Shown here: in pieces, positions 37,431-56,050 of the stretch
How the letters are laid out: the number at the start of each line of letters is the position of its first letter
How positions within the stretch are numbered: position 1 is the first letter of the stretch
Source: Pseudonocardia sp. C8
Lineage (GTDB): Bacteria; Actinomycetota; Actinomycetes; Mycobacteriales; Pseudonocardiaceae
Direction: 5' to 3'
DNA: 64,000 nt
Assembly (NCBI RefSeq): GCF_014267175.1
Contig: NZ_JACMTR010000002.1
Span: forward strand, 384,001 to 448,000
Translations under genes and position numbers: made by a program
Notes under the pieces: generated by a model
What the model was told of the DNA's origin: nothing
The model's database searches: none
The model's input: only the letters and a program-made list of their open reading frames with translations

Positions 37431-37682
37431 CTCAAGGCCGCGCAGGGCCAAGACCTGGTTGGTCCCGCCTTCGGCGGGGCGGAGGGCCGTCCGGTCCGAG
37501 TTTGGCCCGGCCTCACTCCCCATCAAGGGCGCTGCGCGTCGCCTTCGGCGACCGGACTTCGTCCGGCCCTTGACGGCGAGCCTCGGAGGCCGTGCGCGCT
37601 GCGCGCGAGGTGGCGGGGCGAGCGCCCGCCACCCGTGGGCCGGACCGGCCGACCCTCCTCTCTATCGATCTCGGAGGCCAGC
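37431..37682 (+). ncRNA. Structured leader, copy 1 of a duplicated element
   Basis: A 252-nt stretch ending at the ATG of the next gene, matched by a second copy at 55795-56050. Stems: CCCGCC/GGCGGG around TTC (37464-37478); long-range TCAAGGGC (37523-37530) with GCCCTTGA (37566-37573), enclosing GTCGCC/GGCGAC (37538-37552) and CCGGAC/GTCCGG (37552-37566); GGTGGCGGG/CCCGCCACC further down; then an AGGCCAGC ribosome-site region. The order of elements is the same in copy 2. Role unknown: structured mRNA leader, small RNA or DNA recognition element. Confidence 0.55.
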
Positions 37683-37919
37683 ATGAACGCAAGCGTGGTG
37701 CAGGACCCGCCGGTGGTGGATCTGGCGGACGACCAGAGTGATCTCGTCGACGTGACGACCCTGGTGTGCCCGGGGTGCCGGGGCCCGGTGGTGGACGTTC
37801 CGCCGTCGGGGTGGCCGGCCCGCGCCGGTGTGGTGCCGGAGTTCTCGCACCCGGACGGGTCGGTGCTGTGCCCGGATGAGCTGGGGCGGGTTCCGGAGCC
37901 GGTCGAGGTGCGGTTGTGA
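37683..37919 (+). CDS. Small protein with zinc-ribbon-like CPGC motif
   Basis: A 78-residue acidic protein with TLVCPGCRGPVVDVP and a later single Cys (GSVLCPDELGRVP). GGAGG precedes the ATG. Its leader is the duplicated structured element. No family recognised; overlaps the next gene by 4 bp. Confidence 0.65.
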   Translation: MNASVVQDPPVVDLADDQSDLVDVTTLVCPGCRGPVVDVPPSGWPARAGVVPEFSHPDGSVLCPDELGRVPEPVEVRL

Positions 37920-38305
37920 CCCGGCGGACGGCGGTGGAGTGGAGGGTTCCGGACCGGCGCCCGCAGGCCACCGAGCTGGATGCGCGGCTGTTGGAGCCGA
38001 CCGGGCGGACGGGCCGGTTACAGGTGCTGGTGGATCACGACTCCCCGGCGGCCGGGCGCTGCCCCGGCTGCGGGTGGGTGTCGACGTCACGCCGGGGGGA
38101 CTGCCCGTCGCGGGTGATCGCCCTGTCCCTGTTGGAGCGCAAGCCGTTGCCGGCGTGGCTGGCGCACCTGGTCGGGGTGGTGCCGGGGGCGCGGGTCAAG
38201 CGCGACAGCGCCGTGGATCGGCGGGCCGAGCGTGAGGCGCTGGACGGGTGGCCGGGGTTGTTCGAGGCCCCGGTGCGGGTCCCGGAGCCGCGGAGGCCGC
38301 GATGA
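37916..38305 (+). CDS. Hypothetical element protein with CPGC motif
   Basis: A 129-residue basic protein. GRCPGCGWVSTSRRGDCPSRVIALSLLE suggests a small metal site; the rest is Arg-rich. GTG start overlapping the upstream stop. Unrecognised; its place in an overlapping run supports it being real. Confidence 0.65.
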   Translation: MTRRTAVEWRVPDRRPQATELDARLLEPTGRTGRLQVLVDHDSPAAGRCPGCGWVSTSRRGDCPSRVIALSLLERKPLPAWLAHLVGVVPGARVKRDSAVDRRAEREALDGWPGLFEAPVRVPEPRRPR

Positions 38306-38418
38306 GCAGCAAGAACAGCGGGAGCAGCAGCGGGATGGTGCGGCCCGGCGACGGGATCTTGGCGGACACACGACGCCGGGCCGCTCTCCCCACCAACAAG
38401 CATGTGGAGGCAGGAGAG

Positions 38419-38901
38419 ATGACGAGGATAGAGCGCCGGCCGCGGGTCGGCGAGGGTCGGGGCTGGCGCGCCGACGCGGCGTGCCGGGGCACCGACCCGG
38501 AGACGTTCTTCCCGGTCGCCGAGGCCGGTCCGGCCCGGGAGCGGGCCGAGGCGGCGGCGAAGGCGGTGTGCGCGGGCTGCCCGGTGCGAGCCGAGTGTCT
38601 GGCCTGGGCCCTGGAGTCGTTGCCGTTCGGGGTGGCCGGCGGGATGGGCGAGGACGAGCGGGCTGCCCTGCGGCGCCGTCCGCGGGGCGGGCACCGGCCG
38701 AGGCCGATGACCCCGGCGCCGGCTCGACGTGGGAGCGGGCCGGTGTCGCCGGCCCGCGACGCCGGCTACGCCGCGCTGGCAGCGGGTCGAGACCGGACGA
38801 CGATCGCCGCCGAGTGCGGGGTGACCCGGCGGACGGTGGACCGCTGGGCCGCCGACCTGCGCGCCGCCCAGATGCACGCGCCGGTCGGGGGTGCGCGATG
38901 A
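38419..38901 (+). CDS. WhiB-like regulator with C-terminal HTH extension
   Basis: A 160-residue WhiB-like protein. Four cysteines expected to ligate a [4Fe-4S] cluster are in AACRG, VCAGC and AEC, followed by FGVAGGMGEDERAALRR, the family's G-rich turn and basic tail. After residue about 110 there is an extra helix-turn-helix-like segment (LAAGRDRTTIAAECGVTRRTVDRWAADL), unusual for the family. The ATG 38419 sits just after GGAGGCAGGAGAG; an in-frame ATG at 38302 that overlaps the upstream stop and has its own GGAGG is also possible. Confidence 0.85.
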   Translation: MTRIERRPRVGEGRGWRADAACRGTDPETFFPVAEAGPARERAEAAAKAVCAGCPVRAECLAWALESLPFGVAGGMGEDERAALRRRPRGGHRPRPMTPAPARRGSGPVSPARDAGYAALAAGRDRTTIAAECGVTRRTVDRWAADLRAAQMHAPVGGAR

Positions 38902-39455
38902 ACCGCAGCGAGCAGGACGAGCGTGAGCGGTTGTTCGCGGCGCAGGTGCGTGCCCTGGTGTGGTCCGGTGCGGTGGAGGCGTTCGGCGCGGTCCGCCACG
39001 AGGACCCGATCGAGGGCTATCAGGTCCTGACCCGCTCGCGCCTGGATAACCCGCTCGCCGGAGTGACGGCGGCGCTGGTGGCCCGCAACGCCGCGGCCCG
39101 CCAGCTCGCAGAGTTCGCGGAGTCAGCGCGTGCGGCGGGTCGGTCGTGGGACGAGATCGGCGCCGCCCTCGGCCTGGACAGCGCGGGCGACGGCGGGGGC
39201 CGGTCACGGGCCGAGCTGGCGTTCGAGTGGCTCGTGGAGGGCCGCGAACCCCAGCCGGAGCCGGATCGGTGGCCCTCGTTCCGGGCGCCGACGACGTCGT
39301 GGCGGTGCGCCACCTGTGGGCAGCGGGTGACCGACCGGGGCCCGTACGAGTCACACCCCGACGACAACGAGGACGGCCACGCCGAGGCGTGCGCCCGCCA
39401 CCGCGCCGACGTCAGAGCGTGGGTGCGCCGGACCGGATGGGAGGACGATCAGTGA
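38898..39455 (+). CDS. Hypothetical element protein with HTH and zinc-binding tail
   Basis: A 185-residue protein. A middle segment, SARAAGRSWDEIGAALGLD, resembles an HTH; the C-terminus, WRCATCGQRVTDRGPYESHPDDNEDGHAEACARH, has Cys/His spaced for zinc. It overlaps both neighbours by 4 bp (ATGA, GTGA) and immediately precedes the coupling protein. Function unknown. Confidence 0.7.
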   Translation: MNRSEQDERERLFAAQVRALVWSGAVEAFGAVRHEDPIEGYQVLTRSRLDNPLAGVTAALVARNAAARQLAEFAESARAAGRSWDEIGAALGLDSAGDGGGRSRAELAFEWLVEGREPQPEPDRWPSFRAPTTSWRCATCGQRVTDRGPYESHPDDNEDGHAEACARHRADVRAWVRRTGWEDDQ

Positions 39456-41347
39456 TCACCGTGTTGGCTTCTCTGGGTGCCACGCTGGTGGTGCTGCTGG
39501 TGTTCGCCGCCGGCGCCGCGCTGGCCTGGGGGCGCGGGGCCCGTTTCCTCGCGGTCGGGCTCGGGGTGATTGCGGTGTTGCCGGCGGCGACGTTGCTGCA
39601 GGCGTTGTCGTGGCCGGCGTTCGCCCTCGCCGCGCTGATCGTGGTGGCGGTGGTGTGGCACCGGTGGTCGCGGTCGTCGGCGACGGTGCACCGGTGGGCG
39701 GCCCGTAGCCGTCGCAAGGTCGGCGTTGCCTCGTCGCTGGACATCGTCCGCCACGCCGGCACCCTCGCGGTCCGCCGCAAGGCCACGACGGTGCGTCCGT
39801 CGCTGGCTGCGCTGTCGCGGTGGGAGCGTCTGCGGTTGCCGACCGCGGCGGCGGGTACGGAGTTGTGCCGGACCGGTGGGTTGCGGGTGTGGTCCTCCAC
39901 CGAGGACGTCGTGATCGTGGTCGGCGGGCCGCGGACCGGCAAGACCGGCTGGCTGGCCGGCCGGGTCCTGGACGCGCCGGGCGCGGCGCTGGTGACCTCG
40001 ACCCGTACCGATCTCGTGGAGCTGTGCGGGCCGTTGCGGGCCGGGCGGGGCTCGGTGTTCGTGTTCAACCCCGCCGGCCTGGGTGGGCGGGCGTCGTCGA
40101 TCACCTTCGACCCGCTGACTGGCTGCACGGATGCGGTGACCGCGACCGAGCGGGCCACGGACATGATCGCCGCTGTCTCGCGCGGTTCGGGTGGGGATCG
40201 GGCGTTCTGGGACGGTCAGGCCCGTCGTGTGCTGGCCGCGTTGCTGCACGCTGCGGCCCTCGGCGACAAGCGGATGCCGGACGTGCTGGGCTGGGTGGCT
40301 GACCCGGATCTGGCCGGCCGGGAGGTTCCGGCTCTGCTCCGTAGGTCGGGGGTGGAGGCGTTCGAGCAGGACGCGATGCAGTTCATCACCACCAACGACC
40401 GCACCCGCTCGTCGATCACCTCGTCGGTGATGCCCGCGCTCGGGTGGCTGACCCACCCGGCCGCCGCCGCGGCCGCGGAGCCCGGCCAGGGCTTCGACGT
40501 CGCCCGCCTGCTCGACCAGCGGGCCACGGTGTTCCTGCTCGGCGCCGAGGAGGCCCAAACCGCACCGCTGGTGTGCGCGCTGACCGGCCACATCGCCCGT
40601 GAGGCCCGCCGGCTGGCCGCGTACCAGCCCAAGGGTCGTCTGGATCCGCCGCTGGGGTTGTTCCTTGACGAGGCCGCTCTCATCTCACCCGTGCCGCTCG
40701 AGAGCTGGACGGCGGACATGGGTGGTCGGGGTGTGAACATCGTCGCGGCGTTCCAGTCCCGCGCCCAGATCCTGGGGCGGTGGGGTGAGCACGGGGCGGC
40801 GACGATCCTGAACAACACCGCCGCCCTGATGATCTTCGGTGGGACCCGCGACAAGGCGGACCTGGAGTTCTGGTCCACCCTGGCCGGGGAGCGGGACGAG
40901 CGGATCACCACCACCGACACGAACGGCAAGGTGGCCTCTCGCACTGTGCGCAAGGTTCCCGTTCTGGCTCCGGCGCAGATCGCGAACCTGCCCGCCGGGC
41001 GGGTCGTGGTGATCCGCCGCGGGATCGCGCCGGTGATCGGCCGCACCCGCATGGCGTGGCGGCGGCGCGACGTGCGCCGCCGGGTGCGACTGCTCGCGCG
41101 GATCGAGGCCGAAACCCGGTGGCGTCGGCGCGTGGATCGGTGGGCGACCTGGCGCGACCACCAGATCGAATGGGTCCTGGTCGTGTTGGCGCGGCGGTGG
41201 CCGGCCCGGTTCGCCGAACCCGCCCGGCGAGCCGCGGAGGCCAACGCGATGTTCGCCGAGCTGCGCCGTATCCACACCAGCACCGACCCCACGGTGGCCG
41301 CGCTACCGGCCGGCCGGGACGACGTCGCGGGTGGTGAGCCGCGGTGA
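39452..41347 (+). CDS. VirD4/TraD-like type IV coupling protein
   Basis: A 631-residue protein. Two to three N-terminal membrane helices (residues about 1-70) are followed by a cytoplasmic ATPase: Walker A VVGGPRTGKT (to residue 165), Walker B GLFLDEAAL, and AAFQSRAQILGRWGEHGAATILNNTAALMIFGGTRD typical of TraG/VirD4 C-termini. It should bring the relaxase-DNA complex to a secretion channel. GGAGG lies 7 nt before the GTG start. It is coupled to the preceding and following genes. Confidence 0.9.
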   Translation: MITVLASLGATLVVLLVFAAGAALAWGRGARFLAVGLGVIAVLPAATLLQALSWPAFALAALIVVAVVWHRWSRSSATVHRWAARSRRKVGVASSLDIVRHAGTLAVRRKATTVRPSLAALSRWERLRLPTAAAGTELCRTGGLRVWSSTEDVVIVVGGPRTGKTGWLAGRVLDAPGAALVTSTRTDLVELCGPLRAGRGSVFVFNPAGLGGRASSITFDPLTGCTDAVTATERATDMIAAVSRGSGGDRAFWDGQARRVLAALLHAAALGDKRMPDVLGWVADPDLAGREVPALLRRSGVEAFEQDAMQFITTNDRTRSSITSSVMPALGWLTHPAAAAAAEPGQGFDVARLLDQRATVFLLGAEEAQTAPLVCALTGHIAREARRLAAYQPKGRLDPPLGLFLDEAALISPVPLESWTADMGGRGVNIVAAFQSRAQILGRWGEHGAATILNNTAALMIFGGTRDKADLEFWSTLAGERDERITTTDTNGKVASRTVRKVPVLAPAQIANLPAGRVVVIRRGIAPVIGRTRMAWRRRDVRRRVRLLARIEAETRWRRRVDRWATWRDHQIEWVLVVLARRWPARFAEPARRAAEANAMFAELRRIHTSTDPTVAALPAGRDDVAGGEPR

Positions 41348-41988
41348 CCGGCCCTATGCACCCGGAACCGCCGGAGGCGACGGATCGGTCGGTGTTGGCG
41401 GGACTGGCCCGTGAACTCGACGCCCTGCGCCGTGCGGTGGCCGAGCTGGAACCGGTCCCCGGGCAGGTCGAGGCGCTGGCGAAGCTGGTCGGCGAACTCT
41501 CCCAGGCCCTGGCTGCGGTGACCGCGCGCCGGCGGATCCCGGCAGCACCGTCCTGGCTACTGGCCCCCACCGACCCCGACCACGTCGCGCGGCTGCTCGA
41601 CGAGCTGTGCGCCTGGCTGGAGACGGTTTTCCTCCGGTATCCGGACGGGGCGCAGGTGCTGCCCGAGTGCTGGCTGTGGCACCCCGAGGTCGTCGAGGAA
41701 CTCCTGTGGCTGATGCACGCCTGGTGCGCCGCCTACCAAGGCCCCGGCGCCTCGGTCGGAGCAGCAGGCGACTGGCACGACCGCCAACGCCCCGGCGTCG
41801 TCGCCCGGGTCAAGAAGCAGGCCGGCGGCTGCTCATCCGAGCGACACCAGACCCGCCCGGGCTGGAGCAGCGCCCCGAGCGGCCCGATCGAGGTGCCCGG
41901 CCGGGGCGCGGTCGAGGCGATCACCCAGTGGTGGGCCCACGACCGCGACGCCGCCGCGCCCGAGCCGGTCGGAGGTGGCCGGCGATGA
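41344..41988 (+). CDS. Hypothetical element protein with N-terminal coiled coil
   Basis: A 214-residue protein. The N-terminus (LARELDALRRAVAELEPVPGQVEALAKLVGELSQAL) is a predicted coiled coil; the middle (WLETVFLRYPDGAQVLPECWLWHPEVVEELLWLMHAWCAAYQGPGAS) is Trp-rich and helical. It resembles proteins often found between coupling-protein and DUF2637 genes in actinobacterial elements. No function known. Confidence 0.7.
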   Translation: MTGPMHPEPPEATDRSVLAGLARELDALRRAVAELEPVPGQVEALAKLVGELSQALAAVTARRRIPAAPSWLLAPTDPDHVARLLDELCAWLETVFLRYPDGAQVLPECWLWHPEVVEELLWLMHAWCAAYQGPGASVGAAGDWHDRQRPGVVARVKKQAGGCSSERHQTRPGWSSAPSGPIEVPGRGAVEAITQWWAHDRDAAAPEPVGGGRR

Positions 41989-43157: not shown

Positions 43158-43164
43158 TTTCGGG

Positions 43165-46100
43165 GTGGTCGGGGTGTTGAGGATCGCGACGGGCTACTCG
43201 CCGGACTACCTGTTGAAGGAGGTCGCGACCGGGCGGGAGAACTACTACACCGGAGCGGTCGCCGAGGGCGAGCCACCGGGCCGGTGGTGGGGTGCCGGCG
43301 CCGAGCGGCTCGGTCTGGCCGGTCTGGTCGATGCCCAGGACATGCGCGCGCTCTACGAGCGGTTCCTCGACCCCCGGGACGAGGGGTTCGGTGATCCGTC
43401 CCGGTGGGACGAGGTTGGGACGCTGGGACACACCGGACGCAGGTACCTGTCCGAGGACGATCTGTATGTCCAGGCGTTGGAACGGGAGCCGGACGCGGCG
43501 GCGGAACGCCGCGCCGAGCTGCGGACCGAGGCCGGGAAGGCGGCCCGGCACAACGTGGCGTTCCTGGACGCCACGTTCAGCGTGCAGAAGTCGGTGACGC
43601 TGCTGCACACCGCGTTCGAGGCCCGCGAGGTCGCCGCCCGTAAGGCTGGCGAGGAGGAGACGGCGGCGGCGTGGGGCGAGTTCCGGCAGGCGGTCGAGGA
43701 CGCGATCTGGGCGGGGAACAACGCCGCGCTTGCCTATCTGGAGGACAAGGCCGGCTACGCCCGTATCGGCCATCATGGCGGTGCGGCGGGGCGGTGGGTG
43801 GACGCGCACGCGTTCACCGTGGCGTCGTTTTTCCAGCACGACTCCCGGGATCGGGACCCGCAGCTGCACGTCCACAACGCGATCCTGAACCGGGTGATGG
43901 GCCCGGACGGGGTCTGGCGGACCCTGGACTCGCGGGCGATCCACCGCTGGCGGGCGGGTGCGGGGGCGGTGGGGGAGCGCACGACCGAGGAGCGGCTCGC
44001 CGCGACGATCGGGGCCCTGGTCGCCACGCGCCCGGACGGGAAGTCCCGCGAGGTCGTCGGCGTGAGCGCCGAGGCGATGTCGCTGGTCAGTACCCGGCGG
44101 CATGCGGTGACGGCGAAGGCGGCCGAGCTGATCGGGGCGTTCGAGGCCCGCTACGGCCGCGCCCCGAACGGTGTCGAGCGCGACCGCCTGTCCCAGCAGG
44201 CCACCCTCGCCACGCGGGCGGCGAAGTCCCACGACGGCGAGAGCCGCGAGCAGCTCCTCGACCGTGTCGCGGACCGGCTGCAGGCCGACATCGCCGGCGG
44301 TCTGGCCGGGATCGCGGACACCGCGCTCGCCGCGCGGCGGGAGGGCGTGGCCCCGCAGGCGTTCAACCCCCAAGCGGTGATCGAGATAGCCCTGGAGGAC
44401 GTCGCGTCGCGCAAGTCCGGGTGGACCCGCTCGGACCTGGTCCGCGCGGTGAACGCGGCGCTGCCGGACTATCTCGGTTGCCCCGACGGCGGCGACGTCG
44501 CGGCGCTGCTCGATCAGCTCACCGACCACGCACTCGAGTACGCGGTCGCGCTGGAGGCCGACAACCCCGCGACGGAGGTGCTGCCCGACGAACTGCGCCG
44601 CGCCGATGGCGAGTCGGTGTATTCCGCCCCGGGCGGGAAGGTCTTCTGCACCCCGGAGCAGGTCCGCTCCGAGCGGATCCTGCTCGCCGCCACCCAGTCC
44701 CGTGACGGGGCGGCGCTCACCACGGCCCAGGCCGACCGGTTCCTGGGCACGCTTCGGGGCGAGGGGATCGAACTCGGCGTCGACCAGGCGACGGCGGTGC
44801 GCGGGATCCTGACCTCCGGCGCGCGGGTCGAGACCCTCGTCGGGCCGGCGGGCACCGGGAAGTCGTTCGTGGTCGGGACCCTCGCCCGCGCCTGGACCGA
44901 CCCCACCCTGCACCCACCAGGCGGCCCAACAAAGGGACCGGGGCGGGTGTTCGGGCTGGCGACCAGCCAGCAGGCGACCGAGGTCCTGACCGCGGAGGGG
45001 CTGGCCGCGTCGAACATCGCCCGGTGGCTCGTCACGCAGGACCGGCTCGCCGCCGCACCCGCCGAGCGGCGGGCAGCCGACGGGGACGAGGCGTGGCGGC
45101 TGGGTGAGGGGGACCTGGTGGTGATCGACGAATCCGGCATGACCGACACCGCTGCGCTGGCGGCGATCCACCGACGAGCGGACCAGGCGGGGGCGAAGCT
45201 GCTGCTGGTCGGCGACCACCGGCAGCTGTCCGCGGTGGGTGCCGGCGGCGGGATGGACCTGCTCGCCGCGGCCGGGTCACGCTACGAGCTGGCCGACGCC
45301 CGCCGGTTCAACGCCGAGTGGGAACGCACCGCGTCGTTGCGGCTGCGTGACGGCGACGAGGCCGTGCTGCGCACGTACCACCAGCAGGGCCGGCTCCTCG
45401 ACTCCGGCACCCGCGAGGCCGCCGAGGCCTCGGCGGCGCGCGGGTGGCTGGCCGACCACCTCGCCGGGCGTCGGTCGCTGCTGCTGGTCGACACCAACGA
45501 GCAGGCCGCCCGCGTCTCGGCCGCGATCCGCACTGAACTCGTCGCGCTCGGCCGGGTCGCCGAGGATGGTGTTCGGCTCGGGTTCGACGGCACCACCGCC
45601 GGGATCGGGGACCTGGTCGAGGCCCGGGACAACAACTGGGACCTGGCCGGCTACGAGGGCAACCGCCGCGGCCCGCTCAACCGCGACCTCTACCGGGTCA
45701 CCGCCGTCCGCGACGACGGCGCCCTGGAGGTCACCACCGACACCCACGGCGAGGGCATCGGCGTCCGGATGGTCCTGCCCGCCTCGTATGTCAGCGAGCA
45801 CCTGGCCCTCGGTTATGCCGGGACCACCTACGCCGGGCAGGGCGCCACCGTGCACACCACCCACACCGTCGTCACCCCGACGACCCGGGCGAACTCCCTG
45901 TATGTCGCCATGTCCCGCGGGCGGGACCGCAACACCGCTCACGTCACGACCCGGGTCGCGCCCGAGGACCCCGCGGACGGCAGCGCCGAGCGGCACGAGC
46001 TGCACCGCGACCCGGTCGCGGTACTCGCCGGGATCCTCGACACCGCCGACCTGGCCCTCGACCGGTCGGCGTCGGCGATCGAGGCCGAGTCCGCCGAGTA

Positions 46101-47547
46101 CGCCGGCAGCGCCCGGACGGCGGTCGAGCTGCTCGCCGACGCCGCCCAGCTCGCCGCCACCGAACGCACCGGCGCGTCACTGGACCGCCTCGTGCACGAC
46201 GGTGCCCTCACGGACGAACAGCGCGCCCGGATCGCCGCCGAGGACGGCACCGCCGCCCTCACCCGGGTCCTGCGCCGCGCCGAGCTGGCCGGGCACGACC
46301 CGCACACGGTGCTCACCGAGGCCGTCGAACGCGGCCCCCTGACCGGGGCCCGGAACCTCAGCAACGTCGTCTACTCCCGCATCCGCGACAGCCACCGCCT
46401 CGACCCAGTCGGGGAACGGTGGACCGACTGGATCCCACGCACCGACAACCCCGAGTGGAACACCTACCTGCACCGCTTGGCCGAGGCCGCCGACCAGCGC
46501 GCCGACCAGCTCGGCACGGCCGCGGCCGACGAGCCGCCCACGTGGGCGATCGAGGCGTTCGGCGCGGTCCCGACCGAACCGCTGGCCCGGCAGCAGTGGT
46601 GCGACGACGTCGGGCGGGTCGCCGCCTACCGTGAGGTCCGCGACCACCACGACCAGGCCGACGCGCTGGGCCCAGCGCCGAAGCCCGGGCAGGCGGAGGA
46701 GTTCGCGGCTCACCGCGCGGCGTGGCGGGCGCTCGGGCGGCCGGAGATCGACCGCGAGCACCTGGAGCTGTCCAACGGCCAGCTCCGCATGAGGGTGCGC
46801 GCCTACGAGCGGGAACTCGCCGCGGCACCGCGCTACGTCGCCAACGAACTCGCCGGCACCCGCCAGGCCGCCGAAGCCCAGCGCCAGAACGCCGCAGTCA
46901 CCCGCGCCACCATCGACACCACCCCCGACCACGCGGAGCGGGACCGGCTCGCCGAGCAGGCCGCCGACGCCGAGGCAATGGCCACGGTCCTGGAGCAGCG
47001 AGCTGCCCAGCTCCAGGAGATCGACGACGCCCGCAGCGCCTGGCTCGCCCACACCGCCCAGACCCGCGTGCAGGCCGAACTGTCCAAGGCCGAGCTGTCC
47101 GCCCGCGATGCAGCCGACGACCCCGACGACCGGGTCACCGCCGCGCAGTGGAAGGCCGCCCACGACGCCGCGATGGCTGAGGATGAGCAGCACCGCGAGG
47201 TCACAGAGGACGACGTCCACGACGCTCCTGAGGACGTTGAGGCCGTTGGGTGGTGCGAGGACGAGGCCGGCGAGGTGGCCGACAGTCTCCGCGAGGACGT
47301 CCGCGGCATCGCTGATAGCCGCCCGGCGCCGGTGCTGGAGGACGCGGTCCGGGTCCCTGAGGCAGCCGAGACGACCGACCACCTCAACCACGCCGGCCGC
47401 ATCCTCGACGAGATCCGCTACCGCGACACCGCCGTGGACGACCAAGAAGAGCGGGCCGCCGAACTGGCCCGCTGGCACACCGACCAGCACATCGACGTCA
47501 ACGACACCGCCGACGACTACGACGAACCAGCACTCGCCGACACCTGA
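43165..47547 (+). CDS. MobF-family conjugative relaxase/helicase (TraA/TrwC-like)
   Basis: A 1460-residue protein. The N-terminal TrwC relaxase domain has an early Tyr (IATGYSPDYLL) and a metal site QLHVHN (residues about 233-238). A RecD-like SF1 helicase follows with Walker A VGPAGTGKSFV (about 558-565), Walker B LVVIDESGMTD and a C-terminal GYAGTTYAGQGATVHTTHTVV. The last 500 residues are helical, acidic and coiled-coil-like. It would nick at oriT and unwind the transferred strand. Exact start uncertain (GTG 43165 or 43174). Confidence 0.93.
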   Translation: MVGVLRIATGYSPDYLLKEVATGRENYYTGAVAEGEPPGRWWGAGAERLGLAGLVDAQDMRALYERFLDPRDEGFGDPSRWDEVGTLGHTGRRYLSEDDLYVQALEREPDAAAERRAELRTEAGKAARHNVAFLDATFSVQKSVTLLHTAFEAREVAARKAGEEETAAAWGEFRQAVEDAIWAGNNAALAYLEDKAGYARIGHHGGAAGRWVDAHAFTVASFFQHDSRDRDPQLHVHNAILNRVMGPDGVWRTLDSRAIHRWRAGAGAVGERTTEERLAATIGALVATRPDGKSREVVGVSAEAMSLVSTRRHAVTAKAAELIGAFEARYGRAPNGVERDRLSQQATLATRAAKSHDGESREQLLDRVADRLQADIAGGLAGIADTALAARREGVAPQAFNPQAVIEIALEDVASRKSGWTRSDLVRAVNAALPDYLGCPDGGDVAALLDQLTDHALEYAVALEADNPATEVLPDELRRADGESVYSAPGGKVFCTPEQVRSERILLAATQSRDGAALTTAQADRFLGTLRGEGIELGVDQATAVRGILTSGARVETLVGPAGTGKSFVVGTLARAWTDPTLHPPGGPTKGPGRVFGLATSQQATEVLTAEGLAASNIARWLVTQDRLAAAPAERRAADGDEAWRLGEGDLVVIDESGMTDTAALAAIHRRADQAGAKLLLVGDHRQLSAVGAGGGMDLLAAAGSRYELADARRFNAEWERTASLRLRDGDEAVLRTYHQQGRLLDSGTREAAEASAARGWLADHLAGRRSLLLVDTNEQAARVSAAIRTELVALGRVAEDGVRLGFDGTTAGIGDLVEARDNNWDLAGYEGNRRGPLNRDLYRVTAVRDDGALEVTTDTHGEGIGVRMVLPASYVSEHLALGYAGTTYAGQGATVHTTHTVVTPTTRANSLYVAMSRGRDRNTAHVTTRVAPEDPADGSAERHELHRDPVAVLAGILDTADLALDRSASAIEAESAEYAGSARTAVELLADAAQLAATERTGASLDRLVHDGALTDEQRARIAAEDGTAALTRVLRRAELAGHDPHTVLTEAVERGPLTGARNLSNVVYSRIRDSHRLDPVGERWTDWIPRTDNPEWNTYLHRLAEAADQRADQLGTAAADEPPTWAIEAFGAVPTEPLARQQWCDDVGRVAAYREVRDHHDQADALGPAPKPGQAEEFAAHRAAWRALGRPEIDREHLELSNGQLRMRVRAYERELAAAPRYVANELAGTRQAAEAQRQNAAVTRATIDTTPDHAERDRLAEQAADAEAMATVLEQRAAQLQEIDDARSAWLAHTAQTRVQAELSKAELSARDAADDPDDRVTAAQWKAAHDAAMAEDEQHREVTEDDVHDAPEDVEAVGWCEDEAGEVADSLREDVRGIADSRPAPVLEDAVRVPEAAETTDHLNHAGRILDEIRYRDTAVDDQEERAAELARWHTDQHIDVNDTADDYDEPALADT

Positions 47548-47572
47548 TCGTGACGGTGGCCGACAGCGGGGC

Positions 47573-47998: not shown

Positions 47999-48202
47999 GC
48001 ACCCCAGGGTGACAGCAACCTCCGACAACAACGACGCATGAATCGCCCCGGACTCCGGGCTGACCAGGAAAGCGGCGCGACGAGGGCTCATAGCCAGATG
48101 TTGATCGTGGCGCGGTCGGCGGCGTTGAGTCGGTCGTGTCGATCGGGTCCCGCTGCTCGGGACCCGACGGTGGACCGGGTGCCCGTGTCGTCTCGTCACT
48201 CG

Positions 48203-49543
48203 ATGTGCAACAAGAAGACGGTGAGGCGCGACGTATCCGGGGTGGGTGATCAGGTGTCGGCACGGGTGACGCGCTGGGTCGCCGTGGCCGGACTCGTGCT
48301 GGGCGTGGCGCTGGGGGTGGGCGTGGCGGTGTGGGGGTGGGTATCGGTGCCCGCCCTCTACCCGCCGCTCCCACCGAGCGCGACCGAGTCGGTGGACGCG
48401 ACTCGGGAGGCGACCCGCTCGCAGGCAATCGTGACCACCCGGGCGAGCGTGCTGGCGGCGTTGGCCGGGCTCGGGGCGCTGGTCACGATCGGGATCAACT
48501 ACCGGAATTCGCGCACCGCCGCGCAGAGCCTTCAGGTGGCGAACCGGACCTTCGAGATCACCGCACGTGGGCATCTCACCGACCGCTACGCCAAGGCAAT
48601 CGAACACCTCGGCACGACGGAGGGGGAGGGCTCACTGGCGATCCGGCTCGGCGGGATCTACGCCCTGCAGCAGTTCGCCGTCGAGGCCGCCAACCCCGAG
48701 GACCAGACCACCGTAGTCGAGGTGCTCAGCGCGTTCGTGCGCACCAACCTGCCCCGACGCGGCACCCCGCTTGATCCACTGTCCGGCCCGCTGCCGGACG
48801 GGACACCGGACGCCCCGTCTGGCAGCGCACCCGCGCCTGCACCACGGCCGGCTGCGGGGGGACCGGTGGAACCGCCCCCGGACGTGCTCGCGGCCGTCTC
48901 CGTATTGGCCCAGCTCCCGGACCGGATCGAGCTGCGTGCCGATTTCGCCGGTGTCGATTTCACCGGTCTACATCTGGGCCGGGTCCGCCTGTATGCGGCC
49001 AATCTCGGCGGCGTCAACCTCGGCGGCGCCGTCCTCAGCCGTGCCGTCCTCAGCAACGCCGTCCTCCGCGACGCCGTCCTCCGGGACGCCGACCTCGGCC
49101 TCGCCAACCTCAACGACGTCACACTCAGCCACGCCGACCTCCGCGGCGCCGACCTCCGCGGTGCCGTCCTCCGCGGCGCCGTCCTCAACGGCGCCAAACT
49201 CAGCGGCGCCAAACTCAGCAGCGCCGTCCTCCGCGGAGCCGACCTTCGCCGCGCCGACCTCGGCCTCGCAGACCTCCGCCGCGCCAAACTCCGCGACGCC
49301 GACCTCCGCGACGCCGACCTCAGCGGCGCCGACCTCAGCGGCGCTAAACTGAGCGACGCCGACCTCAGCGGCGCCAGACTCAGCGGGGTGCGCGGGCTGG
49401 AGACCTCCCAACTCAGCGGCGCCAACCTCAGCGGGGTGCGCGGGCTGGAACCCGCTCAGCTGTCAGAGCTGGCAGAGTTCCAGCGCGCGGCATGGCGAGA
49501 TGTGCCGGCAGGGTGGGGCAGGCCGGGGCCGGGCGCGGGCTGA
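48203..49543 (+). CDS. Membrane-anchored pentapeptide-repeat protein
   Basis: A 446-residue protein with two membrane helices (VAVAGLVLGVALGVGVAVWGWV; TRASVLAALAGLGALVTIGI), a linker domain (RGHLTDRYAKAIEHLGTTEGEGSLAIRLGGIYALQQFA), a Pro-rich spacer, then about 30 pentapeptide repeats of the A(D/N/K)Lxx type from residue about 250 to 430 (LRGADLRGAVLRG, LRDADLSGADLSGAKL). Pentapeptide repeats fold as a right-handed beta helix; in some families they mimic DNA and protect gyrase, but membrane-anchored ones have no known role. Start codon uncertain. Confidence 0.82.
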   Translation: MCNKKTVRRDVSGVGDQVSARVTRWVAVAGLVLGVALGVGVAVWGWVSVPALYPPLPPSATESVDATREATRSQAIVTTRASVLAALAGLGALVTIGINYRNSRTAAQSLQVANRTFEITARGHLTDRYAKAIEHLGTTEGEGSLAIRLGGIYALQQFAVEAANPEDQTTVVEVLSAFVRTNLPRRGTPLDPLSGPLPDGTPDAPSGSAPAPAPRPAAGGPVEPPPDVLAAVSVLAQLPDRIELRADFAGVDFTGLHLGRVRLYAANLGGVNLGGAVLSRAVLSNAVLRDAVLRDADLGLANLNDVTLSHADLRGADLRGAVLRGAVLNGAKLSGAKLSSAVLRGADLRRADLGLADLRRAKLRDADLRDADLSGADLSGAKLSDADLSGARLSGVRGLETSQLSGANLSGVRGLEPAQLSELAEFQRAAWRDVPAGWGRPGPGAG

Positions 49544-51478: not shown

Positions 51479-51490
51479 GGCCAGGGGGTG

Positions 51491-51697: not shown

Positions 51698-51950
51698 TGT
51701 GTCTCCTCCGAATCGGGGGCGGCCCCTGCAGGGGTCGCGCCGGGTCGCGTGCGGTCACCACCCTGGCAGGAGCCGGGACGCGAGTCCGGCGGCGACACCC
51801 GGGGCTCGGCGAGCGGTCGCGGCCCGGCCGGTGATCGGCCAAGGCCTGGGCGGTGATCACCAGTGTTGACGACGCACCCGGGCCCGACGGTTGTCTAGGC
51901 TTGTCGCGGCTGACCACTCATGTGCCTGGTGTTCGGACTCGGGAAAGTCG

Positions 51951-52832
51951 GTGCCCGCTGTGGCTGAGATCGCGTTCGGTTTCCGGCCCGAGACCCGGCG
52001 GGTCTATGACGCGCCGCTGCTGCGCGGCGTCGACGGGGACACGGTCAACATCGACCAGTCGGTGCGGATGGTCTCGATCGACACCCCCGAGACGCATGTC
52101 GGCGGCAGCGCACCGACCGCGCAGTCCACCCTCGATCGGTGTCGGCAGCGGCTCGCAGACGGCGTCTACGACGCGATCGGGCCGGGGCTACGCGCGCATC
52201 TGCTCAACCGGCTCACTGCGGACGCGGCGGCCCGGCACCTGGGCGCCGGCGCCCGGGCCGGGCAGGAGTTCGCCCGGATGCGCGCCGAACGCCTGACCAT
52301 CGACCCCGTCAGTGGGGTGGGGAAGGTCGGGATTGTGGTGACCGGGGAGGTCATCGAGGAGAACGGGCGGCTGCTGGCCTACGTGACTCCGTGGCTCACG
52401 GCACCGCTGCCACCGCCGGATGACCCGCAGCGGCGAACGTTCAACCTGCAGCTGGTCGAAACCGGCTGGGCGGCATTGTTCCCGATCTACCCGTCGCTGC
52501 CGCGCGACGCCGACCTCGCCCGCGCCGTCCACGCCGCCGAGACCGCGTGGGAGCAGAAGCTGGGTGCGTGGGCGGAGTTCGGGGCGGACCTGCTGCTGGG
52601 CTACGAGTACCGGGCCTGTATCAAGCTGGGCGCCGCCGACCGGCCGAACGAGGCCCCGGTCCCACCGGGCGAGCGGATCGATCAAGCCTTCCGGCGGGTC
52701 TGTATCGACGTCCGCACTCGCACCATCCTGGGGCGCTTCAGCTACCACCAGATCGACCCGCCGTACCGGCTCTGGGTGTGGCAGGACGACCTCGACGAGG
52801 CCCGCAGGGTTTTGCAGCTCGTCGACCCCTGA
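51951..52832 (+). CDS. Thermonuclease (SNase)-like protein
   Basis: A 293-residue protein whose N-terminus matches staphylococcal nuclease: VDGDTVNI with Asp28/Asp30, then VRMVSIDTPET with Arg39, Asp44, Thr45 and Glu47, the metal and catalytic set. The rest (AYVTPWLTAPLPPP, LVETGWAALFPIYPSLP) keeps the SNase strand order but carries insertions. No signal peptide, so it would act inside the cell. Start taken at GTG 51951; GTG 51960 is an alternative. It stands alone after a 253-nt gap. Confidence 0.78.
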   Translation: MPAVAEIAFGFRPETRRVYDAPLLRGVDGDTVNIDQSVRMVSIDTPETHVGGSAPTAQSTLDRCRQRLADGVYDAIGPGLRAHLLNRLTADAAARHLGAGARAGQEFARMRAERLTIDPVSGVGKVGIVVTGEVIEENGRLLAYVTPWLTAPLPPPDDPQRRTFNLQLVETGWAALFPIYPSLPRDADLARAVHAAETAWEQKLGAWAEFGADLLLGYEYRACIKLGAADRPNEAPVPPGERIDQAFRRVCIDVRTRTILGRFSYHQIDPPYRLWVWQDDLDEARRVLQLVDP

Positions 52833-53195
52833 GCGCGCGCCGGAGCCTGACCGACGCGCGCGTGCTGGCGCCGCGACACGCACCGGCGTTAGGTCTCGAG
52901 CAACTCCGATGCCTGCGACCGCCCGTGTCCGGGCGACCCGTGCAGCCTCGTCGTCGAGGTTGTCGGCCGGCGCACCGAGCTGGTCGTCGGTAGCACCGGG
53001 AGGGCCAGCCGCGCTGGCAGGGCCCCTGCGGCGCGCGCGGGTCGCGATATCCGCGGCGGGGCGCCCTCGACGCCGCCATGGCCAGCGGCGTCGACTACGC
53101 ACGCGCGTCGACGACTGCGTCCGGCGAGTGGGCCGGCGGGGATGGGTGCCCTGGGTCGACCGCACCCCGCCTGTGTCTGCGATGTCCGCATGTTA
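52833..53195. other. Gene-free stretch before the 53232 operon
   Basis: About 360 nt without a supported gene; frames here show poor bias. The last 60 nt become AT-richer and run into the operator palindrome at 53196. Confidence 0.5.
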
Positions 53196-53210
53196 TTGCG
53201 ATCATCGCAA
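53196..53210. promoter_or_regulatory. Perfect operator palindrome TTGCGAT-C-ATCGCAA
   Basis: Seven-bp arms around one central base, 22 nt before the start of the 53232 gene, in a locally AT-rich segment. TATCGT (53218) follows as a possible -10. The HTH product of the first gene could bind it. Confidence 0.65.
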
Positions 53211-53231
53211 ATCTGGGTATCGTTCGGAGCC

Positions 53232-53651
53232 ATGAACAACGACGTGTTCGATGCCCTCGCGGCGTTGGCGTGCGCGGACCCGGTCTCGGTGGATCCGCCG
53301 GAGGCGTGGGCCGATGTGGCCGACGAGCTGGCTCGGGAGCGGGCCGAGTTGGCCGACGAGCTGCGGCACCAGTGGGAGGTCGCGCCGGAGCCGGAGGATC
53401 CGTTGTTGGCCGAGTTGGCGGGGGCGCGGGCGCGGGAGTTGGCGGCGCAGCGGCACAAGCGACGGTTGTTGGCCTATGCGCGGGAGTTCAGTTCGCCGGG
53501 CCGGACTCGGCCGTACACGCTCGAGCAGCTCGCCGCCGCGGCCGGGCTGTCGATCTCGGGGGTGCGGACGGCCTACGACGGTGATGACGTCGACACCGTG
53601 GCCCGCGCCACCGGGGCCCGGCGGCACCCGAGCGCCCGGGACGGCTCGTGA
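53232..53651 (+). CDS. Small HTH protein, first gene of an unknown operon
   Basis: A 139-residue protein. The acidic helical N-half (ADVADELARERAELADELRHQWEVAPEPEDPLLAEL) is followed by ARELAAQRHKRRLLAYAREFSS and a C-terminal HTH (TRPYTLEQLAAAAGLSISGVRTAYDGDDVDTVARATGA). GGAGC lies before the ATG. It probably regulates its own operon through the palindrome 22 nt upstream. Confidence 0.75.
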   Translation: MNNDVFDALAALACADPVSVDPPEAWADVADELARERAELADELRHQWEVAPEPEDPLLAELAGARARELAAQRHKRRLLAYAREFSSPGRTRPYTLEQLAAAAGLSISGVRTAYDGDDVDTVARATGARRHPSARDGS

Positions 53652-54097
53652 ACCGCGCCCCGTCCGACACGACCAGCCCGCCGGCGCGGCCGGGTTCGTT
53701 GACATTGGAGGAGTTGCGGGCTCGGCGTGACCGGCTGCGTGGCGAGCTGGCCGAGGTGATCGCGCGGCGCCGGCAGGCCGAGGCGACCGCGGCGCGTGGG
53801 GTGGGGTGGGAGCGGGCGATCGCGGTCGTGCGTCGGGACCGCGATTCGGGCCGGTCGCCGGTGCTGCTGCGGCAGCGCGCGGTGTTCGAGCAGGTCATGG
53901 ACCAGTTCGAGCAGGTCGACTATTTGATCGCCCGTCTGGCCACCCGCCTCTCCGACGCGGACGCGGACGCGGGGGAGCGGCGCCGTGGTCAGGCGGCGTG
54001 CGAGCGCGGCCTGGCCGCGATCCAGGGTCTCGCCGACGCACTCCGCGCCAGCGCGCGCGAGGACGCCGACACCGTGCGGGGGAGGGGTGGGTGGTGA
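53648..54097 (+). CDS. Coiled-coil protein of unknown function
   Basis: A 149-residue protein with long charged helices: LTLEELRARRDRLRGELAEVIARRRQAEATAARGVGWERAIAVVRRDRDSG, then LLRQRAVFEQVMDQFEQVDYLIARLATRLSDADADAG. No family recognised. Overlaps both neighbours by 4 bp (GTGA), so it is translationally coupled. Confidence 0.7.
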   Translation: MNRAPSDTTSPPARPGSLTLEELRARRDRLRGELAEVIARRRQAEATAARGVGWERAIAVVRRDRDSGRSPVLLRQRAVFEQVMDQFEQVDYLIARLATRLSDADADAGERRRGQAACERGLAAIQGLADALRASAREDADTVRGRGGW

Positions 54098-55713
54098 GTC
54101 GGGGCAAGCACGCCCGCCGCCGCGTCAACCGGGACCGGGCTGCGCTGGAGGGCGAGATCGCAACGCTGGCGGCACAGCTGGTGCGGGAACGGGACCGCCT
54201 GGACCGGGCCCAGGCCGGGGTGCGGCGCGCCGACACCGCACAGGCTCGGCTGGCCGCTGAGACCGCCGCGGCGGCGCGGGTGATGGCCCCGGTCGAGGCT
54301 GAGGTCACGCGGGCCGCGGCCGGGTTGGGGGAGGCGTGCGCGGCGTTGACCGAGGCGCAGATCGAGCTGGGCCGCTGTGATGCCCGGCTGTCCCGTATCG
54401 CGGGGCGCAGCGCGGACCCGGCGCGGTTGCGCACGGCCCTGAACACGGGGGTGCGCGCGAATCTCGACTCCGTGCACCGCAGCGCGCCGCTGGCGTACCA
54501 TCACCTGGCGTTTCGGCGCCGGGCAGGCGCCGACACCCCACTGTGTCGCACCCTCGAGGTGGGTGGGTGGATCCCGCCCGAGGTCCCCGCCACCGACCAC
54601 GACCGGATCGCGGCGCACATGGCGTCGCGGGCCGGCGAGCACAGCCGCGCCGCGCTGTGGTGCTGGGCGGTGCCGCCGTGGATGGGCCTGCCCGACGGCA
54701 CCGACGCCGCCGAGCTGCGCGCCGAGCTCGGCGCGACCACGACCGGCGCCCCCGACCTCCCGCACGGGGACTTCCCTGCGCGGCCGCGGGCCCACCCGGT
54801 GGTGAGTACACCGTGGCGGCACCGCCCCCTGCTCTCCCTGCCCGAGGACGCGGTGGATCTGGCGTACTGGTATCGGCGCAGCGCCTGGACCCAGAACTGG
54901 CACTCCGAGAGCCGGGCGGTGCCGTTGTGGCTCGGCAACGAGCACGCGAACGGGTTCCCCCGCTCCCAACCGTTGCCGGCCGGCACCGACCGGCGGCTGC
55001 CCTTCCCCACGGTGATCGTGGTCTTCGAGTCCGGGTGGGAGCTTCCCGCCCGACACCCCGACCCGCCCGACACCCGCGCCCCGGTCGAGATCTTCTACGC
55101 CCGCGGCCGCGCCACCGCGGCACCGCTGCTGGAGGAACCGCTCTACCGGCTGGCCCCTGGTACCCGCCGCGCCGACCTCGCCACCCCACTGCAGCTCGTC
55201 GAGCGCTACGGCGCCACCGTGGAAGGGCTGATCTTTACCGCCGACCCCGACGGCCACCCCGCCGACGAGTTCGCCTGGTGCCTGGCCATCCACCACCCCT
55301 GGGGCCTGCCCCTGGGCCGGATCACCGTGCCCGCCTCCCGCTGGGCCACCCACTGGACGACCGCCATCGACAACACCCTCGCCGGGGTGTGCCTGGCCCA
55401 CTTCCACCCCACCGCGACCAGCACCCGCATTCCCGGCACGGACCCGCGGCCCACCGACGCCGAGCTATCCGAGCATGACGACGCCGGCGTGCACGTCCTC
55501 GACATCGCCACCACATCACCCACCACCGGCCCGCACCGGACAACAACACGATCACCGGCCGGGCGGGCGGCCCACCTGCGTCGCGCGACCTGGCGCTACC
55601 AGCCGGTCGGCCCCGGCCGGCAGCAACGACGCTGGACCTGGGTCCGCGCCACCATCGTCGGAAACCGATCCACGCCGACCCGCTCGACGGTTTACCGACT
55701 CACCGACCAGTAG
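54094..55713 (+). CDS. Large uncharacterised protein with N-terminal coiled coil
   Basis: A 539-residue protein. Residues about 1-120 form a charged coiled coil (RDRAALEGEIATLAAQLVRERDRLDRAQAGVRRADTAQARL). The remainder is mixed alpha/beta, Trp- and His-rich: YHHLAFRRRAGADTPLCRTLEVGGWIPPEV, LPFPTVIVVFESGWELPARHP, VEGLIFTADPDGHPADEFAWCLAIHHPWGLPLGRITVPASRW. I do not recognise a domain. Coupled to the two preceding genes, it ends just before the second structured leader. Confidence 0.75.
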   Translation: MSRGKHARRRVNRDRAALEGEIATLAAQLVRERDRLDRAQAGVRRADTAQARLAAETAAAARVMAPVEAEVTRAAAGLGEACAALTEAQIELGRCDARLSRIAGRSADPARLRTALNTGVRANLDSVHRSAPLAYHHLAFRRRAGADTPLCRTLEVGGWIPPEVPATDHDRIAAHMASRAGEHSRAALWCWAVPPWMGLPDGTDAAELRAELGATTTGAPDLPHGDFPARPRAHPVVSTPWRHRPLLSLPEDAVDLAYWYRRSAWTQNWHSESRAVPLWLGNEHANGFPRSQPLPAGTDRRLPFPTVIVVFESGWELPARHPDPPDTRAPVEIFYARGRATAAPLLEEPLYRLAPGTRRADLATPLQLVERYGATVEGLIFTADPDGHPADEFAWCLAIHHPWGLPLGRITVPASRWATHWTTAIDNTLAGVCLAHFHPTATSTRIPGTDPRPTDAELSEHDDAGVHVLDIATTSPTTGPHRTTTRSPAGRAAHLRRATWRYQPVGPGRQQRRWTWVRATIVGNRSTPTRSTVYRLTDQ

Positions 55714-55794
55714 CTGCCCATCGGCGGCGGTGGGCATCTGCGCCAACAGACTGGGCGGTCGTGGCCTGAACCGGGCCGCGACACGCAAGACCCG

Positions 55795-56050
55795 CTCAAG
55801 GCCGCGCGGCCGAGAACACCAGTGGAGCGCCTTCGGCGCGGCCTGACGGCCCGGTGGCTTCGCACGGCCGGTCTCCCGGTCAAGGGCGCTCCGCTGGCGC
55901 TGCGCGTCGCTGCGCGACCGGACTGCGTCCGGCCCTTGACCGCGAGCCTCGCCGGCCGTGCCCGGACGCCTTGCGGCGGCGGGGAACAGCGCCCCGCCAC
56001 CCCAAAGGGGTACCCGGGCCGACAGGCCCGACGACGATCGGGAGGCCAGC
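55795..56050 (+). ncRNA. Structured leader, copy 2 of the duplicated element
   Basis: A 256-nt stretch that repeats copy 1 (37431-37682) from CTCAAGGCCGCGC to the AGGCCAGC just before the ATG. GCGCC/GGCGC around TTC (55827-55839) replaces copy 1's CCGCC/GGCGG, a compensatory change. TCAAGGGC (55880-55887) pairs with GCCCTTGA (55932-55939), enclosing GTCGC/GCGAC (55906-55918) and CCGGAC/GTCCGG (55918-55932). GGCGGGG/CCCCGCC follows near 55980. Substitutions concentrate in loops. Confidence 0.55.

Follow-up and report, generated by a model that had tools for sequence, protein, structure and literature searches.

A multi-copy leader of actinobacterial MobF conjugative elements, with a fold apparently conserved on the DNA strand that is probably the first to reach the recipient

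Two leader copies beside the genes of a conjugative element

The window, by which we mean the whole 64-kb stretch of DNA analysed, carries genes of a conjugative element, including those for a TraG/TraD-type coupling protein (39146..41347, plus strand; PF02534 and PF12696) and a MobF (TrwC) relaxase-helicase (43165..47547, plus strand; PF08751, 3.5e-46). On the strand of the relaxase gene lie two segments of about 250 bp, which the original prediction had described as one structured leader present twice. Both were found in their places, and their full extents are 37429..37682 (copy A) and 55793..56050 (copy B). They can be aligned from the 5' box CGCTCAAGGCCGCG to GGAGGCCAGC-ATG with all elements in the same order, and both terminate in a Shine-Dalgarno (SD) sequence ahead of unrelated genes. 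The R1 core occupies 37495..37634 in copy A (123.8 bits) and 55852..56002 in copy B (115.2 bits). A search of the own genome with copy A recovered copy B with an E value of 7e-20 as well as four further clear copies, one of them on a 134.6-kb contig (C1) that also has a diverged second copy; thus the likeness is far above chance and is not confined to the window.

Copy A reaches from its 5' box to the last base before the start codon, with all elements on the plus strand. The 5' box CGCTCAAGGCCGCGC (37429..37443), recognised by a motif pattern, is followed by hairpin P0b (CCCGCC-TTC-GGCGGG, 37464..37478) and by stem P1 (left arm 37505..37514, right arm 37586..37595). Within P1, stem P3 (left arm TCAAGGGC, 37523..37530; right arm GCCCTTGA, 37566..37573) encloses inner hairpin 1 (GTCGCC-TTC-GGCGAC, 37538..37552) and inner hairpin 2 (CGGAC-TTC-GTCCG, 37553..37565). 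Downstream of P1 stand hairpin P6 (GGTGGCGGG / CCCGCCACC, 37609..37633), hairpin P7 (37638..37650) and the SD sequence GGAGG (37673..37677). In copy B, likewise on the plus strand, we located the 5' box (55793..55806), P0b (GCGCC-TTC-GGCGC, 55827..55839), the arms of P1 (GCACGGCCGG, 55862..55871; CCGGCCGTGC, 55952..55961) and of P3 (CGGTCAAGGGC, 55877..55887; GCCCTTGACCG, 55932..55942), and P7 (GGGCC-GACA-GGCCC, 56016..56029). The predicted compensatory change is present in P0b, where CCGCC-TTC-GGCGG of copy A (37465..37477) is replaced by GCGCC-TTC-GGCGC in copy B, and so is the loop change from TTC to TGC between CCGGAC and GTCCGG.

The gene following copy A, gene X (37683..37919, plus strand), encodes 78 aa with no Pfam match and a CPGC motif that looks zinc-ribbon-like by eye, and belongs to a cluster of 19 leader-linked ORFs; gene Y after copy B (56051..56614, plus strand) encodes 187 aa, also with no Pfam match, and belongs to a cluster of 29. 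The two products are unrelated, as had been claimed (BLASTP E value of 13), and a tblastn search of plasmids with protein X gave no match. Copy A precedes transfer genes, and no obvious establishment gene is seen there. Rfam gave no match at gathering score in the window, the region of copy A yielding only mir-542 with an E value of 0.9, and phage records searched with copy A gave no match.

A leader family with a covarying fold before start codons

Copies A and B belong to a family of leaders present in many copies on actinobacterial MobF conjugative plasmids and ICEs. At least 103 matches with E values below 1e-8 were found in Pseudonocardia genomes, and relatives occur in other actinobacterial genera. 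A strict DNA pattern applied to genome contigs found 13 stretches, all from Pseudonocardia, the pattern being too strict to prove absence elsewhere. For counting we took the best 106 of 122 matches, of which 102 leaders were distinct, and excluded weaker and antisense-overlapping matches. The 5' box pattern is present in 74 of the 102, at 58-71 nt ahead of the core, and with up to 4 mismatches allowed the P0b hairpin is found in 93/102 and a P7-like hairpin in 91/102.

The first model alignment (A3) comprised 38 of the 41 leaders extracted by then, from which L043 (a duplicate), L040 (broken in its 3' part) and L045 were left out. In the later alignment A5, 33 of the 41 model pairs change on both sides. 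The covariation amounts to 340 cells, compared with 95.2 (sd 7.2) after shuffling, and falls to 37 and 64 when the register is slid by one column. The fold consists of the nested stems P1, P3, the two inner hairpins, P6 and P7, and covariation is seen in every helix of A5: P1 (helix 1), whose 10 bp enclose a loop of at least 70 nt with the inner hairpins, has all 10 pairs changed on both sides, and it is joined by P3 (helices 2 and 3), inner hairpin 1 (helix 4), inner hairpin 2 (helix 5, in which GC, AU and CG are all used) and P6 (helix 6). The final model omits P5, a further stem between P1 and P6 whose pairs failed, and also base pairing between the 5' box and the right arm of P3, since to the eye the variable base of CTCANGG seems not to covary. 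With covarying helices in front of the unrelated genes X and Y, the view is borne out that a structured element has been duplicated, carries compensatory changes and does not owe its likeness to gene duplication.

The leaders have a fixed place in front of genes. A start codon with an SD sequence follows the core at 28-80 nt in 80/102 leaders, compared with 197 of 2040 random places. A downstream ORF was chosen for 99 of the 102 leaders (none for 3), and some of these choices, 97-252 nt away, have probably missed the true gene. The genes are diverse and include those for ParB, WhiB and SprT-like proteins; a diverged leader copy stands before a primase/polymerase gene. By eye, an unpaired GAGCCTC is kept in diverged copies.

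To look for promoters, we searched the leaders for TTGA[CT] and TANNNT spaced by 15-20 nt, a sigma-A-like pattern and the only one tried, and found the pair in 0/102. TTGA[CT] is present in 55 of the 102 cores, and the TTGAC of the right arm of P3 was considered as a -35 element; this is unsupported, no spaced TANNNT partner existing in the 102 leaders. TANNNT itself occurs in 1/102 leaders, compared with 37.5 after mononucleotide shuffling, which makes it improbable that the leader contains an ordinary sigma-A promoter. It is equally missing from the 68 nt before the leader region (0/102, compared with 18.4 after shuffling); a sense transcript is therefore also without a recognised promoter.

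Pair types, folding energies and orientation towards the relaxase gene

The original prediction offered a cis-regulatory RNA, a small RNA or a protein-binding DNA site of the mobile element. A cis-acting mRNA leader, in which the sense RNA would fold and control translation or termination downstream, perhaps by binding an element-encoded protein, agrees with the fixed place before SD sequence and start codon, with the covarying fold and with a sense RNA folding z of -2.4 for both copies A and B. It is also one possible reading of EGeRS1, the leader of pLS20-family plasmids of Bacillus, which in its native orientation stops readthrough from upstream promoters according to the portion of PMC8708921 available. 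The types of non-Watson-Crick pairs speak against it. In 4157 cells read on the sense strand, A·C occurs 163 times and G·U (G·T) 35 times, whereas the cobalamin riboswitch (RF00174) of the same genus, likewise structured, covarying and upstream of start codons, has 24 G·U and 2 A·C in 249 cells (5 sequences, from 5 of 10 alignments shown). The leaders thus largely lack the G·U intermediates expected of a cis-regulatory RNA, and they further differ from the riboswitch in having no Rfam match and in preceding unrelated genes on mobile elements.

A tree-based tally of single-step events in the lines listed gave 53 A·C and 16 G·T, compared with 150 and 132 for the matching loop substitutions; 34 of the 53 A·C events are clustered in columns 13, 38, 68 and 120. 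Inner hairpin 1 alone, located in 50/102 leaders, gave 26 A·C and 1 G·T. The P0b hairpin showed no strand bias (6:6). A separate count for inner hairpin 2 (G·T 28, A·C 11, other 92) was discarded for its wrong register. RNAalifold without G·U on MAFFT alignments gave G·T:A·C ratios of 55:51 for the riboswitch and 133:215 for the leaders, or 8:8 and 7:10 with stricter pairing; this strand test was set aside as too noisy because the known G·U excess of the riboswitch was not recovered.

Folding energies with DNA parameters, calculated for the first 97 of the 102 leaders, showed the antisense strand to be more stable in 84/97, with a mean difference of -4.35 kcal/mol compared with -0.43 kcal/mol after shuffling. 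When RNA parameters are used, composition accounts for most of the advantage of the antisense strand (-7.5 compared with -4.6 shuffled, sd 10.4). The control was the F plasmid, which carries a repeat of 552/554 nt, in two copies 89% alike, before ssb and one other gene; we take this repeat to be Frpo, PMC11541004 mentioning, in the portion available, an Frpo of F upstream of ssb. In DNA folding of Frpo the antisense strand was the more stable in 4/4 sequences (-4.3 to -10.4, compared with +0.2 to -3.8 shuffled).

The same antisense-strand bias was found in a second class of leaders, unrelated to the first, one copy of which precedes ssb. The antisense strand of class 2 is more stable in 12/12 (mean -10.1, shuffled -4.0) and 14/15 cases (-9.7, shuffled -1.7), and its A·C:G·T ratios are 9:1 and 13:3, although these come from the kind of RNAalifold pipeline without G·U that missed the riboswitch excess.

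The leaders are also co-oriented with the relaxase gene. Among the matches listed, 60 of the 103 Pseudonocardia leaders with E values below 1e-8 lie within 60 kb of a MobF/TrwC gene, the other 43 having no TrwC in that range on their contig, and all 60 have the orientation of the relaxase gene. This count covers most TrwC rows, with short fragments and several rows of G046, G003 and G058 omitted. In other genera, 8/8 leader matches within 60 kb of TrwC are co-oriented with it (G594 four, G578 one, G205 two, G215 one); G373 and G482, with TrwC on other contigs, and two weak matches in G594 at a distance of millions of bases (E values of 0.002 and 0.007, one per strand) were not counted. As a baseline, on two plasmid stretches 22/39 and 28/44 annotated genes share the orientation of mobF. 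The excess of A·C over G·U, the antisense DNA fold and the co-orientation all point away from an mRNA leader, which we consider unlikely; the sense-RNA part of the original prediction is disfavoured.

A priming or protein-binding site on the transferred strand, such as an ssi-like second-strand origin bound by a primase/polymerase or a relaxosome protein, lying between genes with no direct role in expression, would fit the antisense-strand fold of both leader classes, the co-orientation, and the diverged copy adjoining a primase/polymerase gene. Such a site has no need of the tight spacing to SD sequence and start codon, and we regard it as quite improbable. An antisense small RNA, made from the minus strand across each gene's SD region, would likewise give more A·C than G·U and a more stable antisense strand, but it does not predict the co-orientation with the relaxase gene and is very improbable. 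A double-stranded operator at which a regulator of the element would recognise inverted repeats, suggested by the many copies common to different operons, by the 5' box and by the GAGCCTC, is hardly tenable, as it predicts no strand bias and needs neither a 10-bp stem over so long a loop with two inner hairpins nor covariation in all helices. The DNA-site part of the original prediction is accordingly favoured as a single-strand fold and not as a double-strand protein site.

Likeness to single-stranded promoters and a proposed role

We think it moderately probable that the leaders are a regulatory element of single-stranded DNA, similar to Frpo, which acts on the transferred strand and drives establishment genes. 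The fold seems to be conserved on the strand that is probably the first to reach the recipient. By analogy with the nic polarity of F and of R388, the antisense (template) strand of the leaders would be the transferred one. This strand would enter the recipient single-stranded and fold into P1, P3, the inner hairpins, P6 and P7, and the folded strand might then switch on the gene whose start codon lies 28-80 nt past the core, before or during second-strand synthesis; the turn-on of expression, and the use of the fold by RNA polymerase or a primase, are what we infer. The targets would be early genes, for primase/polymerase, ParB, WhiB, SprT-like and other proteins with no assigned function, with SSB under class 2.

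Promoters of this type are described from F and ColIb-P9, plasmids of E. coli, and other leading regions hold homologues and candidates (PMC11541004 and PMC8708921, each in the portion available). Like Frpo in F, the leaders are repeated segments just before the start codons of unrelated genes, accompanied by a MobF relaxase, and their antisense-strand DNA fold is the more stable. In F, ssb, parB, psiB and the tra genes are on one strand; plasmid pPaSha1 has a similar order on one strand, namely parB, ssb, [leader] primase/polymerase, dprA, [leader] 275-aa gene and mobF. Besides these two class-1 leaders pPaSha1 has four of class 2, including the one before ssb, and by analogy with F this stretch may be its leading region, in which case several leader copies stand just upstream of leading-region-like genes. 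The leaders differ from Frpo in fold and length and in having no recognised -10 and -35 inside a folded stem, and there is no convincing sequence similarity (25 blastn matches with E values up to 1, the best among the matches listed being 0.044, over 15-23 bases).

EGeRS1 is likened to the leaders by arrangement. According to the portion of PMC8708921 available, each plasmid has several structured copies of it directly in front of the RBS in establishment operons, with no sigma-A promoter found, as in the leaders. It belongs to another phylum and plasmid family, is 400-600 bp long where the leaders are about 250 bp, and its transferred strand is the non-template strand according to its authors, opposite to what we infer for the leaders (PMC8708921, same portion). 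No single-stranded DNA promoter in Actinobacteria is described in the titles and abstract openings of the literature found, and PMC11541004, the only paper found that joins such promoters, conjugation and Streptomyces, uses no word in its main text that starts with 'Actino'.

If the single-stranded regulatory reading is true, the leaders mark the early genes of these elements, including the families of X and Y, and would thereby point to a set of proteins that are candidates for anti-defence or establishment functions. Counting A·C against G·U, combined with DNA folding energies, makes a cheap screen for folds conserved at the DNA level and not at the RNA level, and could be applied to EGeRS1-type leaders. 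More tentatively, actinobacterial MobF plasmids and ICEs may possess two or more unrelated families of DNA switches that act on the transferred strand and have no sigma-A -10/-35 elements. These would turn on establishment genes (SSB, primase/polymerase, ParB, WhiB, SprT-like, X and Y) solely during the single-stranded stage of the incoming DNA, and one family would have recruited a three-way-junction repeat that is also dispersed in actinobacterial chromosomes. Among the matches listed, dispersed repeats of the core junction are also present in genomes with no TrwC match (G048 and G021), which suggests some role outside conjugation too.

Leader copies, fold and family

Leader copies A (37429-37682) and B (55793-56050), both on the + strand and each running from the 5' box to the start codon, have a common 5' box, stem order and terminal GGAGGCCAGC-ATG; the original prediction had held that the two segments agree in stem order and ending. 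The compensatory stem change and the loop change that it described were both found in the sequence, and genes X (78 aa; 37683-37919, +) and Y (187 aa; 56051-56614, +), directly downstream of copies A and B, respectively, are without relationship, so its claim that the downstream proteins are unrelated stands. The interval from X to Y encodes, on the same strand as the leaders, the coupling protein of a T4SS (39146-41347) and a relaxase of the TrwC/MobF type (43165-47547). A pentapeptide-repeat protein (49004-49453, in the ORF 48038-49543) was observed 3' of the relaxase. Since Cas_GSU0053 (PF09617, 57315-58589) and a Cas3-like helicase (PF22590, 59379-62963) lie shortly 3' of leader B, a CRISPR-Cas locus is present in or beside the element. 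When the own genome was searched with copy A, copy B was retrieved with an E value of 7e-20, together with four other clear copies, three of them chromosomal and the fourth on contig C1 (134.6 kb). This contig also carries a diverged second copy, upstream of an ORF which by eye resembles the primase/polymerase of the plasmids.

The outer architecture comprises the 5' box, an outer stem P0a, a hairpin P0b and a closing stem P1; the inner one comprises P3 bearing two inner hairpins, a hairpin P6 and a hairpin P7 adjoining the SD. The GAGCCTC of the P3-P1 interval is, by eye, retained in many diverged copies too. In a structural alignment of 105 distinct sequences, 91.2% of the cells are paired. 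Covariation of the stems among homologues, which the original prediction had named as support, is present: both-side changes occur in 33 of 41 pairs, and both-side changed cells number 340, against 95.2 (sd 7.2) in shuffled alignments and 33-64 after sliding by 1-3 columns. These numbers are not probabilities, because the structure guided the alignment and similar sequences contribute to the counts more than once.

The leader was matched by blastn in at least 48 of 60 genus genomes (E<=1e-3), and R1, a covariance model of the leader core made from 38 copies, matched at least 46 of 62 (E<=1e-3), some of them only weakly and with matches resembling dispersed repeats. R1 matches occur in 15 of 296 genomes at class level, own genome counted, and in 11 of 298 at order level (E<=1e-5), three of the 11 being Pseudonocardia. 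Visual inspection revealed leaders with a downstream start codon, some with the 5' box, in two genomes of the same family (G594, G578), one of the same order (G373) and two from another family of the class (G205, G215). A strict pattern search of named genomes gave 13 stretches, all in Pseudonocardia and including pPSED01 of P. dioxanivorans. Eight plasmid records carry the leader, all from Pseudonocardia, and the six inspected are MOBF-typed; the search of phage records gave no match. Titles and abstract starts retrieved under Frpo and leading region, Pseudonocardia ICEs, ssDNA promoters with Actinobacteria or Streptomyces, Gram-positive Frpo, and EGeRS1 contained none with these leaders, and a literature search on structured RNA in Pseudonocardia found no paper.

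The inner three-way junction, TCAAGGGC...GCCCTTGA, is also present as dispersed repeats spanning several actinobacterial families (L081, L082, L084, L085, L087, L090 and other loci, and Pseudonocardia genomes G048 and G021). By eye, no SD and start follow the repeats in the loci read from other families, and a TrwC match is absent for G048 and G021 among the matches listed. Such a dispersed repeat may have been co-opted into the leader; alternatively, the repeats could be relics.

Downstream genes and orientation

The best 106 of 122 R1 matches contain 102 distinct leaders. In 80 of these, an SD-associated start codon (ATG or GTG) opens an ORF of 60 or more codons 28-80 nt past the core, against 197 of 2040 random places in the same loci; the commonest distances are 43, 60, 45 and 48 nt. 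The 99 predicted first ORFs, for which one representative per cluster was scanned for domains, fall into the Y family (29), the X family (19), a 275-aa family that adjoins mobF on annotated plasmids (14), a cluster with a DUF6459-matching representative (7), WhiB-like (3) and SprT-like (2, the match slightly below the Pfam cut-off) proteins, transposases beside broken leaders (3) and 22 singletons, one with a ParB_N domain. Transposase-like ORFs, presumably IS110-like, adjoin partial leaders in L146, L150 and L151, and such an IS may use the leader element as its insertion target. On pPaSha1, pPA12743CP and pLS2-2, an annotated bifunctional DNA primase/polymerase gene follows a diverged copy, and by eye similar ORFs do so on C1, G053:C67 and pPSED01. 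On our reading of the sequences, the G205 and G215 leaders precede SprT-like and ParB-like starts.

For 60 of 103 leader positions, a TrwC match lies on that contig no more than 60 kb away, and 60 of 60 are co-oriented with it; the other 43 have none among the matches listed. Within the same distance, 8 of 8 leaders in other genera are co-oriented (four in G594, one of them weak at 44 bits, one in G578, two in G205 and one in G215). Co-orientation with mobF is less uniform for genes at large, by our count 22/39 and 28/44 on two annotated stretches. The order on pPaSha1 is parB, ssb, leader, primase/polymerase, dprA, leader, 275-aa gene and mobF, with one intervening gene of the parB-mobF stretch on the opposite strand; on the F plasmid, the displayed tra genes are on one strand together with ssb, parB, psiB and an antirestriction gene.

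Strand preference of the fold

G·U pairs are tolerated in RNA, and the identical letters read as A·C on the complementary strand. Sense-strand mismatches of the leaders are 163 A·C vs 35 G·T, and 93 vs 30 in pairs at least 65% Watson-Crick. On a tree, departures from Watson-Crick pairing are 59 A·C and 32 G·T, or 53 and 16 without double changes (tallied by us from printed lines); four columns account for 34 of these 53. Mutation bias explains little of the A·C excess, because the matching substitutions in loops are 150 vs 132. Outside the core, A·C:G·T is 20:9 in P7, 42:14 in P0a and 6:6 in P0b. The control, cobalamin riboswitches of the same genus in their Rfam structure, gave 2 A·C vs 24 G·U (5 sequences); a blind RNAalifold variant failed to reproduce this.

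Folded as DNA, the antisense strand is stabler in 84 of 97 leaders, by a mean of 4.35 kcal/mol vs 0.43 in dinucleotide shuffles; with RNA parameters, composition accounts for most of the strand difference. For Frpo, the ssDNA promoter of F, and two relatives, all 4 sequences favour the antisense strand, by 4.3 to 10.4 kcal/mol (shuffle means +0.2 to -3.8). The positive control thus backs the energy test, and the negative control is weak, since the riboswitch sense preference barely exceeds that of shuffles (+4.2 vs +3.4 with RNA and +2.35 vs +2.25 with DNA parameters).

A second leader class and comparison with known systems

On pPaSha1 a repeated leader with unrelated sequence, here class 2, lies upstream of ssb and other genes. 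Copies in L223 (NZ_CP052772.1 255000-300000) are at 1987-2210, 4035-4246, 10165-10500 and 12836-13163, with a partial one at 9142, all in the mobF direction. Class 2 recurs on many of the other Pseudonocardia plasmid loci analysed, in the direction of the class-1 leaders wherever compared by eye; a search of the window with two class-2 motifs gave nothing beyond chance. Its antisense strand is stabler in 12/12 and 14/15 copies (differences -10.1 and -9.7 vs shuffled -4.0 and -1.7), and the A·C:G·T ratios are 9:1 and 13:3. The second ratio was obtained with the RNAalifold procedure, which did not reproduce the riboswitch control.

Family, fold, position, orientation, strand bias and the class-2 results together fit the reading that the leaders are like Frpo in kind, that is, folded ssDNA of the presumed transferred strand. 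The leader would work as folded single-stranded DNA of that strand and would act upstream of establishment genes. The main gap in this ssDNA-element reading is that a spaced -35/-10 pair was not found in the leaders; TANNNT occurs in 1 of 102, and in 37.5 once mononucleotides are shuffled, a procedure that would not preserve a low TA content. A different polymerase holoenzyme, a primase or a step at the RNA level may play a part. For EGeRS1, the establishment-gene leaders of Bacillus pLS20-family plasmids, the authors considered ssDNA promoters highly unlikely: the fold showed no promoter and, as the weightier reason, transfer involves the non-template strand (PMC8708921).

The F plasmid (L224) has two copies of a repeat which we take as Frpo (10071-10622 and 15459-16012), 89% identical over about 555 nt; about 20 nt separate their ends from start codons, and the window leaders are arranged in the same way.
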